From: Acidimicrobium sp.
GTDB taxonomy: Bacteria; Actinomycetota; Acidimicrobiia; Acidimicrobiales; Ilumatobacteraceae
Direction of reading: 5' to 3'
Length of the DNA stretch: 33,898 nt
Assembly (NCBI GenBank): GCA_002737635.1
Contig: NSIC01000006.1
Span: forward strand, 1 to 33,898
The stretch's first letter is position 1; each line of letters begins with the position of its first letter. The notes beneath the pieces were generated by a model. It made no database searches. It saw only the letters and a list, made by a program, of their open reading frames with translations, and had not been told where the DNA came from. Of the stretch, positions 8,722 to 14,424 are shown piece after piece. The position numbers were made by a program, and so were the translations under genes.

Positions 8722-9027
8722 TTAAAGTCCCTTGCCACCAATCGGTGTCAAAAACGAAAACTCTGGCGCGCCATCAACAAATGGAGCAAGAGTCTTTGAC
8801 CAAGACTTAAATGCTTCAGAGCCCATGTGCAGATTCGCCGCATCTTGATCGGCATACAGTTCATAGAACCACACCGTGTTCGGTTCAACGGCATCGTGAT
8901 GGAACGCATAGAACTGCGTACCTGCCTCACCCTTGGCTGTTTCAATGCCGGGCATGACGGCCTCGGTCATGGCCTCGCGTTGACCCTCTTTGATTTTAAG
9001 TTTTACCACTACTGCTACTTGCGACAT
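8722..9027 (-). CDS. ABM-type monooxygenase domain protein
   Basis: 101 aa single-domain protein with ferredoxin-like ABM pattern (KIKEGQ...GTQFYAFHHD...WFYELYADQDAANLHMGSEAFK). Confidence 0.8.
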   Translation of the reverse strand: MSQVAVVVKLKIKEGQREAMTEAVMPGIETAKGEAGTQFYAFHHDAVEPNTVWFYELYADQDAANLHMGSEAFKSWSKTLAPFVDGAPEFSFLTPIGGKGL

Positions 9028-10436: not shown

Positions 10437-11162
10437 CTAATACTCAGGACGCTCAAACACTGCGACCGACTTGAGGCGACGCTCGAGATGATGCTCCATA
10501 CATTTTGTCGCAAGATCGGATACCTCGCGAGTTGCCGAACTCTCTGGCAAAGAAAGAGCCTGATTCAAATGTCCACCGACAATATTTTGGATGATCTTTA
10601 TCGCATCATTCGAAATAGTCGCGCCACTGCGACAACTCTGACATTGCCCGCCGCCACGAAATAGGTCGAACGCCACGATCTTGTCGCCAGACGCTCCGCA
10701 ACCCACACAACTCTCAACATGTGCACCAACTCCCTCAACGACAAGCAACTTAAAATAAAATGCAGCCAGAACCAACGCTGAGTCGTTTTCTGAAAGCCAT
10801 TGCAACGCTCCAACCAACATTTTGTAAAGGTGCGGTGTTGGCTCAGCCTCCATGCCGAGTTGGTCAACTGCTTCAAGCATTGCCAAACCGCGTGTCAGAC
10901 GATCCAAATCGCTGTATAGACCTCTTGCGTTCGTCACCAATTCAACCTGATTTACCGTGTCTAAGTCTTTGCCTTTGTTCAGCAATACATCAATATGACT
11001 TAATGGTTCTAGGCGAGCGCCAAACCGAGACGACATTTTTCGCACACCGTTGGCAACTGCGCGAACCTTTCCGTGTTCTTCGCTCATCATCACGATTATG
11101 CGATCTGCTTCGCGTAAATCATATGTGCGCAACACAACCGCCTTATCGCGATACAAACTCAC
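10437..11162 (-). CDS. recO: DNA repair protein RecO
   Basis: MSLYRDKAVVLRTYDLREADRI N-terminal OB domain and CVGCG/CQSC zinc ligands; GTG start overlapping the upstream stop. Confidence 0.93.
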   Translation of the reverse strand: MSLYRDKAVVLRTYDLREADRIIVMMSEEHGKVRAVANGVRKMSSRFGARLEPLSHIDVLLNKGKDLDTVNQVELVTNARGLYSDLDRLTRGLAMLEAVDQLGMEAEPTPHLYKMLVGALQWLSENDSALVLAAFYFKLLVVEGVGAHVESCVGCGASGDKIVAFDLFRGGGQCQSCRSGATISNDAIKIIQNIVGGHLNQALSLPESSATREVSDLATKCMEHHLERRLKSVAVFERPEY

Positions 11163-11755
11163 GAGTCGACACCACCAAAGCGACGATCGCGACGTTGAAA
11201 ATCACCGATAGCCATTTGAATGTGTTCGACATCGCATTGCAACCACGGCACATTCAAGAACACAAGTTCGCTATACGCGAGTTCCCACATCAAAGATTCA
11301 GGCACCTGAGTAGGCGCACCCAACACCAAAACCAAATCGGGTTCACCAGATGCTGGTGAGAGAAGTGTCGCCGCAAGCTTCTCTTCATCGATCTCTTGAC
11401 TACTGCTCAGTTGAGCCACGGCATTGACAAACCGCTCTTGACCATCCGCGCAAGTATCGACCACGACAATTAGTCCATGTTCAGCGATCACAGAAACTCT
11501 GTCACCAGAACGCTGACCACCAAAAATCGAAATGATTGAGTTACAGATTGCTGTGCGCTCAATCGCGCTCGCGTCCCCTGAGTAAGGATAAATAGAAAGC
11601 CACCGAACTCCGACTCCACCAACTGAACGCACCAACGCATCGATCTGAATTTTCCATTGGTCAGGGGTAGTTTTTAGCCATTCAACGATGGTTCCGGCAC
11701 ACACCAAGACATGAGCCAATTCGCTATTCAAATCGCGCGTTGTCTTAGACATCAT
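11159..11755 (-). CDS. Degenerate cis-prenyltransferase paralog (UppS-like, lacks catalytic MDGNGR motif, keeps C-terminal RxG motif)
   Basis: C-terminus MWELAYSELVFLNVPWLQCDVEHIQMAIGDFQRRDRRFGG matches the UppS C-terminal pattern (LWQxAYAELYF..WPDF...RERRFGG); N-terminal HVLVCAGTIVEWL replaces HVxxIMDGNGRWA. Confidence 0.8.
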   Translation of the reverse strand: MMSKTTRDLNSELAHVLVCAGTIVEWLKTTPDQWKIQIDALVRSVGGVGVRWLSIYPYSGDASAIERTAICNSIISIFGGQRSGDRVSVIAEHGLIVVVDTCADGQERFVNAVAQLSSSQEIDEEKLAATLLSPASGEPDLVLVLGAPTQVPESLMWELAYSELVFLNVPWLQCDVEHIQMAIGDFQRRDRRFGGVDS

Positions 11756-11814
11756 TACATTGTCTCACTTTTAAACGACTCAACTCGCCAATCAGAGTTG
11801 TTAGCGTTGAAATA

Positions 11815-12483
11815 ATGAATTCAAAATCGCTCCACGTGGCCTGCATCATGGACGGTAACGGAAGATGGGCTCGTAAGCGCGGTTTGCCCCGTACGGCTGG
11901 TCACACCGCGGGCGAAGAATCACTTGCCGATATTGTTCGTGCTGCTTCAAAGCGCGAGGTTGCATACTTGACGGTGTTTGGCTTTTCTACCGAAAACTGG
12001 GTGCGCCCGCGAGCTGAAGTTCGTCATATTCTCGGCCTGCACAAGAAACTCTTCGGACGAATTGCTGAACTTAATGAAAATGACGTTCGCGTCAATTGGA
12101 TAGGTCGTCCATTCGACGAGCCCGGTTCGCGCACACCGCTTTACGTGCAACGAGCAATTCGAAAAGCCATCGAAGACACCAGAAACAACACCGGCATGGT
12201 TTTGACTGTCGCATTCGACTATGGCTCACGAAGCGAACTGACTCGTGCAGCCAAAAAACTTGTTGAATCTAACGCCGACCTCACCCCCGCAAACTTGCAA
12301 CGAGATCTCTATGACGCGTCTTTGCCGCCGGTTGATGTACTCGTTCGAACCTCAGGTGAATCTCGAATCTCAAATTTCTTGCTCTGGCAAATCAAAGCGG
12401 CGAAAATCTATTTCACCGAGCGACCATGGCCAGATTTCGACGCCGTTGATCTTGACGCCGCCATCGCCCTGGCAAAGAACTAG
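11815..12483 (+). CDS. uppS: Undecaprenyl/polyprenyl diphosphate synthase, catalytic subunit
   Basis: HVACIMDGNGRWARKRGLPR, FGFSTENW, RTSGESRISNFLLWQ, ERPWPDF motifs; C-terminal RxG tail absent. Confidence 0.93.
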   Translation: MNSKSLHVACIMDGNGRWARKRGLPRTAGHTAGEESLADIVRAASKREVAYLTVFGFSTENWVRPRAEVRHILGLHKKLFGRIAELNENDVRVNWIGRPFDEPGSRTPLYVQRAIRKAIEDTRNNTGMVLTVAFDYGSRSELTRAAKKLVESNADLTPANLQRDLYDASLPPVDVLVRTSGESRISNFLLWQIKAAKIYFTERPWPDFDAVDLDAAIALAKN

Positions 12484-12516: not shown

Positions 12517-14424
12517 GTGCCGCCAAATATCGCCGACCAAGAAGTACTTGACGCATTGCGCCGTGTTACAAATGAATTGAGTAACGCTGAACTTCGCCAG
12601 GGTCAAGATGAGATGGCTGTTTTGGTTGGTCGTGCTCTCCGTAAAAACCGACATCTAATCGTGCAAGCAGGTACAGGCACGGGCAAAACGCTCGGCTATC
12701 TAGTGCCTGCAATTGTTTCGGGTCGACGCATTGTTGTATCAACGGTGACAAAGGCGCTGCAAGACCAACTTTCACAAAACGATCTTCCATTGTTGGCCAA
12801 AGCCCTAAACCCGACCCTCGATCACGAATTGACATGGACAGTTCTGAAGGGTCGCAGCAATTATTTATGTCGCCAGCGAATCGCCGAACTCGCCGATCGC
12901 GCCCAGTCTCGACTTGAACTCGACGACCTCTCGGTGCGCACAAAATCAGATATTAAAAAACTTTGCGAATGGGCAGAGTCGACACAGACGGGAGACGAAG
13001 GCGAACTCGATTGGCAACCACAACGAAATGCTTGGTCGATGGTTAGCGTCACCAGCGAAGAGTGCCCTGGTGCATCTCGATGCCCAAATGGTGAGAGGTG
13101 CTTTTCTGAGCGCGCAAGAAATGAAAGTCAAACCTCCGACATCGTGATCGTCAACGGTTGGCTTTATGCGTTAGACATCGTCACTGAGGGCACGATCATC
13201 GGTGAACATGATGTCGTCATTTTTGACGAGGCGCACGAGCTTGAAGATGTCGTCACCGATTCTGCGGGGCTTGCGCTATCACCGAGTCGCATAACGGCAA
13301 TTGGTTCGGCGATGAGATCGATAATTCGCGACGACGCGATGTCGGGTGGGTTTGCCAAGAGTGCCGCCCGACTGCGCGATGCGATTGTGCCGTTCATCAA
13401 CAAGCGACTTTCATTGCCCCTTGACAATGAATCTCGCGAAACTCTCGTCGAAGTGCGGGGTCGCGCAAACGGAGCACTCGAGTCGCTGCGCACCATCGCC
13501 ACAAATGACGAGTCAGCCAAACAAAGAAAACTCCGTGCGCAATCTCTTTGCACTCGTTTCATCGAGGACCTTGATTTGGCCCTCACCGATCGCAGCGGAT
13601 ATGTCGCATATGTCGCCGGCACACCTGACCGATGCTCACTTGAGATGCGCCCTTTAAATGTGGGTGCAGCGCTGCATGAAGCTGTTTGGTCACAGCGCAC
13701 TGCGATTTTGACAAGTGCGACAATTCCGAACAATCTGCCCGAGCGACTCGGCCTTGTGCCCGAGAGTTTTGATGCATGCCATGTGGCAAGCCCGTTTGAT
13801 TACGAAAATAATTCGCTGTTGTATTGCGCATCACATTTGCCCGATCCGGCACAGGGGGTGCGCGACAAAGCGGTGCATCGCGAAATTGAAGAGTTGATCA
13901 ACGCAGCCGGTGGCCGCACCCTTGCGCTATTCACGAGTTACGCGCGATTGAATAGTGCTTACAGCGAACTTGAAGACAAACTTGAATTCAAAATTCTCAA
14001 ACAAGACGATCTTCCAAAAATGGAGTTGCTGCGCAAATTCGCCGAAAATGAAGCTACATGCTTGTTTGCAACGCAAAGTTTCTTTCAGGGTGTCGATGTG
14101 CCGGGTCAAACGCTAAGTCTCGTAATCATTGACCGTCTGCCGTTTCCCGTGCCGACAGATCCGCTGATGAGCGCGCGCCGAGACGCCTACGGCAAATCTG
14201 CATTCACCGCGATTGACATTCCGATTGCTGCAACAAAATTGGCGCAAGCCGCTGGTCGACTAATTCGCACACAAACCGATATCGGAGTAGTCGCCGTTCT
14301 CGACCCGCGACTCGTGACGAAGGGTTACGGCAAGTCGATAATCGAAATGTTGCCCCCAATGGAGTTCACCAACAAACTCGCAAGAGCCAAAGAATTTTTG
14401 GCTTACGCCGTCAAAAGTCGATAA
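12517..14424 (+). CDS. DinG/XPD-family ATP-dependent DNA helicase
   Basis: QAGTGTGKTLGYLVPA Walker A, IFDEAHELEDV Walker B (DEAH), Cys cluster CPGASRCPNGERC, AAGRLIRTQTDIGVVAVLDPR motif VI; GTG start. Confidence 0.93.
   Translation: MPPNIADQEVLDALRRVTNELSNAELRQGQDEMAVLVGRALRKNRHLIVQAGTGTGKTLGYLVPAIVSGRRIVVSTVTKALQDQLSQNDLPLLAKALNPTLDHELTWTVLKGRSNYLCRQRIAELADRAQSRLELDDLSVRTKSDIKKLCEWAESTQTGDEGELDWQPQRNAWSMVSVTSEECPGASRCPNGERCFSERARNESQTSDIVIVNGWLYALDIVTEGTIIGEHDVVIFDEAHELEDVVTDSAGLALSPSRITAIGSAMRSIIRDDAMSGGFAKSAARLRDAIVPFINKRLSLPLDNESRETLVEVRGRANGALESLRTIATNDESAKQRKLRAQSLCTRFIEDLDLALTDRSGYVAYVAGTPDRCSLEMRPLNVGAALHEAVWSQRTAILTSATIPNNLPERLGLVPESFDACHVASPFDYENNSLLYCASHLPDPAQGVRDKAVHREIEELINAAGGRTLALFTSYARLNSAYSELEDKLEFKILKQDDLPKMELLRKFAENEATCLFATQSFFQGVDVPGQTLSLVIIDRLPFPVPTDPLMSARRDAYGKSAFTAIDIPIAATKLAQAAGRLIRTQTDIGVVAVLDPRLVTKGYGKSIIEMLPPMEFTNKLARAKEFLAYAVKSR

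Follow-up and report, generated by a model that had tools for sequence, protein, structure and literature searches.

The window, a stretch of 33,898 nucleotides from a member of the Ilumatobacteraceae, harbored two divergent genes related to uppS. The first (11815..12483, +) encoded a truncated UppS of 222 aa, considered here as the catalytic subunit, which displayed a full cis-prenyltransferase core (PF01255, E 1.4e-66) without the RxG tail. Its match covered positions 1-209 of 219, so that the tail alone was missing; the protein ended with ...ERPWPDFDAVDLDAAIALAKN before a TAG stop, its very last residues being ...DLDAAIALAKN. The DGNGRW motif (11851..11868, +), which includes the catalytic aspartate (D26 in E. 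coli), was invariant in catalytic subunits and lost in partners. According to the alignment column, Lys197 (12403..12405, +) occupied the place of a glutamate that is invariant in single-chain UppS (E213 in E. coli).

The second gene (11159..11755, -) encoded an NgBR-like partner subunit of 198 aa (PF01255, E 5.4e-12), composed of a degenerate catalytic half, a dimer-interface half and an RxRRFGG tail. PF01255 matched it only over positions 124-219 of 219, and its C-terminus was FQRRDRRFGGVDS. Within the tail, RRDRRFGG (RxG motif; 11171..11194, -), residues R189, R191, R192, F193, G194 and G195 were invariant in an alignment of 23 sequences, and Glu163 (11267..11269, -), equivalent to E. coli E213, was invariant in all partners. 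The N-terminal half displayed a GGT/AGT-type sequence where UppS has DGNGR.

The two start codons were separated by 59 bp (11756..11814), presumably a shared promoter region, in which a simple scan gave no sigma-70 promoter match. The partner gene overlapped by 4 bp with recO (10437..11162, -; PF11967/PF02565 and synteny), also a neighbor of the ancestral uppS. Directly 3' of the catalytic gene lay the gene of a DinG-like helicase (12517..14424, +; PF13307 and synteny), which in outgroups is divergent to a single-chain uppS. In many outgroup loci, dinG was divergent to one full-length uppS, beyond which lay recO (and glyS); in Ilumatobacteraceae, dinG adjoined the catalytic gene and was followed, in divergent orientation, by the partner gene, recO and glyS. 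The split pair sits at the ancestral uppS site between dinG and recO, with the partner in the uppS-recO position.

Some variation was encountered around this arrangement. In one sublineage (loci L053 and L055), approximately 2 kb separated the catalytic and partner genes and contained an ORF of ~700 aa (L053:3783-5885, L055:860-3037), probably a membrane protein, without Pfam match; a fragment of this protein preceded the partner gene in locus L056. A small ABM (antibiotic-biosynthesis-monooxygenase) domain protein was encoded between trpC and glyS (8722-9027, -) and its position was conserved in most related loci.

Modeled as a single chain with AlphaFold2 (pLDDT 84.6), the catalytic protein matched UppS structures over its full length, the best PDB matches being the enzymes of T. 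fusca, S. pneumoniae and E. coli (TM 0.83-0.86). The partner model (pLDDT 83.7) displayed a reduced UppS-like fold (TM ~0.6), which began at residue 15 after a short N-terminal stretch of low confidence. Its tail was also of low confidence in the single chain, as would be expected if it became ordered only within a complex. A fold search with the partner retrieved UppS-type cis-prenyltransferases among its top 50 matches, and not NgBR, so that the link to NgBR rests on a profile match: besides bacterial UppS (E 1e-19), the profile of the partner family matched human NUS1/NgBR over profile positions 38-195 (E 3.5e-8).

Complementary partition of UppS residues

The 38 full-length UppS of the order were aligned with 51 catalytic chains, 52 partners and the E. 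coli UppS. Sixty-six columns, each at least 95% conserved in the single-chain UppS of the order, were considered. Forty-one were retained by the catalytic chains only, nine by the partners only and six by both, the rest being mixed. The catalytic-only columns included D26, G27, N28, R30, R39, H43, N74, R77, E81, R194, E198, R200 and S202, while the partner-only columns were G147, E174, L191, Y211, E213, R239, R241, R242 and G244. All 51 catalytic subunits agreed with full-length UppS at D26, R39, H43, N74, R77, R194, E198, R200 and S202. D26, N28, R30, R39, H43, R77, R194, E198 and S202 were missing from all partners, for which the alignment is uncertain in the N-terminal half and unambiguous in the C-terminal half (R194, E198, S202, E213 and the tail).

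An RxRR[FYKM]G tail was found in none of the 51 catalytic homologues, in all 52 partners (always as RxRRFG) and, within the order, in 37 of the 38 full-length UppS, the remaining sequence being cut by a contig end. The catalytic homologues, which came from independent assemblies, all stopped 16 to 21 residues past the conserved W221 (E. coli numbering; 51/51) and displayed no DHDDS-like C-terminal helix-turn-helix extension. No RxRRFG-like tail was present in any frame downstream of the catalytic stop of the window. Three family matches seemingly crossing a TGA stop were also considered as possible frameshift or readthrough and proved to be arginine-rich chance sequence without the motif. The truncation of the catalytic chain is real, old and conserved.

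Position E213 emerged as a second swapped residue besides the tail. It was a glutamate in all full-length UppS (38/38) and all partners (52/52), and in only two of the 51 catalytic chains, which otherwise displayed lysine (29), alanine (6), arginine (5), proline (4), glutamine (3) and other residues including asparagine. A human counterpart of this swap exists: DHDDS reads ...WQTSHSCLVF..., with a cysteine at this position, and NgBR reads ...WHIRLTEIVSL..., with the glutamate. We take E. coli E213 to be a Mg2+ ligand; no paper on this residue as a metal ligand was found in the open-access literature searched.

These results agree with a preliminary description of the window, made from its sequence alone. 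The 222-aa UppS with catalytic motifs that stops before RxRRFGG was confirmed both by the extent of its PF01255 match and by all 51 homologues, and the only tail of the locus indeed sits on the divergent partner (11159-11755, -), as it does in 52 out of 52 partner sequences. The proposed split into two subunits appears even deeper than first described, with 41 against nine columns partitioned, including E213, which the preliminary description had overlooked.

Distribution, copy number and selection

PF01255 matches were detected in 191 of the 201 Ilumatobacteraceae genomes. According to a hand count of the match table, 172 of these 191 displayed two such genes, 15 displayed one and four displayed three. 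The better match usually ended at position 208-209 of 219, except in genomes G206, G215, G248 and G301, which carried one full-length UppS each; most other cases with one or three matches were incomplete or fragmented assemblies. Across the order (198 genomes), one full-length UppS was the usual state of the other families. A second UppS-like gene beside the full-length one was observed in five genomes of family f31 (G031, G081, G116, G147 and G173). A search with the partner profile in 395 genomes of the class and 397 of the phylum detected partners only in Ilumatobacteraceae, true partners being recovered at 5e-39 or better and ordinary UppS at 1e-27 or weaker.

The genome of the window, which is 71% complete, contained no third PF01255 gene. 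Three single-contig genomes of 99% completeness (G006, G134 and G229) carried the pair and no other UppS; the second complete UppS that the preliminary description had envisaged elsewhere was thus not encountered in near-complete, pair-bearing relatives. All five genomes tested for an MraY-type transferase (PF00953) contained one, and UppP (PF02673) was present in each of the eight genomes tested for it. The cultured Ilumatobacter coccineus YM16-304T, whose chromosome has been published (PMC3910706), very probably carries the split pair as well.

The exceptional genomes deserve separate mention. In G215 and G248 (genus g151; loci L069 and L070) and in G301 (locus L071), the only UppS was full-length, belonged to another lineage and lay outside the dinG-recO locus; the tails encountered were RRRRKG, RRRRMG and RKRRKG, and no split pair was detected. 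A one-chain UppS seems to have replaced the split pair in these three genomes, although the absence of the pair from G301, which is 72% complete, may reflect a gap in the assembly. In G206 (loci L068/L108), dinG and recO flanked a single uppS, the ancestral state; this genome is either a basal member of the family or a misplaced one, and should help to date the split.

Strong purifying selection acts on both genes, dN/dS being 0.02 to 0.12 among close relatives. The catalytic chains formed one clade (support 100/100) with a long stem; a single origin of the split arrangement is therefore most likely. A grouping of this clade with the UppS of the order gave an AU p value of 0.17, and the catalytic gene may be either an in-place duplicate or an import from another actinobacterium.

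A putative heteromeric UppS

The pair is very likely an obligate heteromeric cis-prenyltransferase acting as the sole synthase of undecaprenyl- (polyprenyl-) diphosphate, a reading drawn from sequence data. On the best reading, this role would extend to nearly the whole family Ilumatobacteraceae. The partition of residues matches that of DHDDS and NgBR, which favors an obligate heteromer in which each heterodimer has one active site. The truncated UppS would bind FPP and IPP/Mg2+ and do the chemistry by means of DGNGRW, R39, H43, N74, R77, R194, E198, R200 and S202, while the catalytically dead partner would dock via the usual UppS dimer interface (around W207-W221). The RxRRFGG tail of the partner would then reach across and complete the single active site of each heterodimer, as NgBR does for DHDDS, probably together with the partner glutamate at position E213. 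Both genes would be needed, since no complete UppS exists elsewhere in the near-complete genomes bearing the pair. As to its origin, the uppS between dinG and recO may have been replaced by a divergent pair, once and before the radiation of the family, complementary degeneration following thereafter.

It is improbable that the catalytic protein functions as an RxG-less homodimer while the partner serves another purpose, either as a regulator or as a degenerate paralogue. Such enzymes do exist: Methanosarcina mazei MM_0014, a homodimeric archaeal enzyme, is active alone without RxG, and relatives also lack this motif (PMC8131916), so that tail loss by itself is no proof of heteromery; the modeled catalytic fold is likewise complete without the tail. 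MM_0014, however, has a substitute TLGG end, of which no equivalent was seen in the catalytic chains considered here. Moreover, the homodimer reading fails to explain why a dead partner is retained family-wide with exactly those residues that are gone from the catalytic chain (RxRRFGG, the glutamate at position E213 and Y211) and with almost none of the catalytic set. Both genes are kept together across Ilumatobacteraceae and dN/dS is equally low for the two.

Less probable still, the pair could make a specialised prenyl product, with the undecaprenyl-PP of the wall supplied by another enzyme. Actinobacteria have secondary cis-prenyltransferases, and the genome of the window is only 71% complete. 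Nevertheless, three single-contig genomes of the family and most of its near-complete ones had only two PF01255 genes, and the pair occupies the ancestral uppS locus. Such genomes have an MraY-type transferase and UppP where tested, which indicates that undecaprenyl phosphate is used and hence that the product of the pair is needed. That the catalytic gene is an ordinary uppS deprived of its tail by an assembly or sequencing frameshift, an eventuality raised in the preliminary description, can practically be dismissed, because nothing favoring an artefact was found, no downstream frame holds a tail and 51 independently assembled homologues, including those of single-contig genomes, end at the same place.

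A two-protein synthase for the wall lipid carrier thus appears to be present in Ilumatobacteraceae, bacteria of fresh and marine waters. According to the open-access literature, such an arrangement has so far been described only in eukaryotes and archaea; no bacterial heteromeric UppS was described in the papers searched (subscription papers and preprints lay outside the search). A review assigns homodimeric cis-prenyltransferases to bacteria and heteromers to eukaryotes (PMC7839719); heteromers of archaea have been on record since 2019. A more extended scenario can be put forward only tentatively and is rather doubtful as a whole: an essential homodimeric UppS would have been replaced by a heteromer that evolved independently of the eukaryotic and archaeal ones from two uppS copies degenerating in a complementary manner, with RxG and E213 provided in trans and a carrier perhaps longer than C55. 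If true, the switch to a heteromer may have lengthened the wall lipid carrier (>C55), as heteromers do elsewhere.

The bacterial pair offers a simple and culturable system (probably including I. coccineus) in which to study the reasons for the emergence of heteromers, any effect on regulation or chain length of having a single active site in each dimer, and the identity of the residues acting in trans. Alongside RxG, E213 is now predicted to act in trans, which is testable in the human and bacterial enzymes. Annotation by PF01255 only hides the second, probably necessary subunit, and inhibitors of UppS may act differently in Ilumatobacteraceae.

Comparison with known systems

The catalytic chain resembles MM_0014 in lacking RxG. 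MM_0014 is nonetheless a stand-alone enzyme with a TLGG end and unusual acceptors, whereas a tail-bearing partner is conserved alongside the chain described here. Homodimeric UppS, such as E. coli IspU and M. tuberculosis Rv2361c, share with the pair their fold, catalytic residues and presumed pathway role, as well as, in relatives, the dinG-uppS-recO locus; the pair differs in being composed of two specialised chains, of which the catalytic one lacks both RxG and E213.

Among heteromers, the archaeal enzyme MM_0618/MM_1083 of M. mazei (Emi et al. 2019, as cited in PMC8131916) is, going by its description there, likewise a prokaryotic two-subunit enzyme serving a glycosyl carrier lipid. By the same description it is archaeal, whereas the bacterial pair sits at an uppS locus and looks locally derived.

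The closest parallel in working is DHDDS-NgBR (yeast Rer2/Srt1-Nus1). There, the tail of NgBR passes across the dimer interface, and its RxG region contributes to the S1 and S2 sites of DHDDS; NgBR itself is inactive, and the activity of the complex exceeds that of DHDDS alone ~400-fold (PMC7573591). Both systems combine a catalytic chain that has full motifs and no RxG with a non-catalytic chain that is UppS-like mainly in its C-terminal part, carries RxG and alone displays the glutamate at position E213. In contrast to DHDDS, the catalytic chain lacks the C-terminal helix-turn-helix domain and is much nearer to bacterial UppS, its best PDB match being the enzyme of the actinobacterium T. fusca (E 1e-48), than to DHDDS (E 5e-29); its expected product is a wall carrier rather than dolichol, and its genes lie at a bacterial uppS locus. 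The pair was not classified as a member of DHDDS/NgBR by descent, because it lacks the C-terminal domain of DHDDS and occupies that locus. It is best read as a heteromeric UppS that would work like DHDDS/NgBR and would have arisen separately in bacteria.
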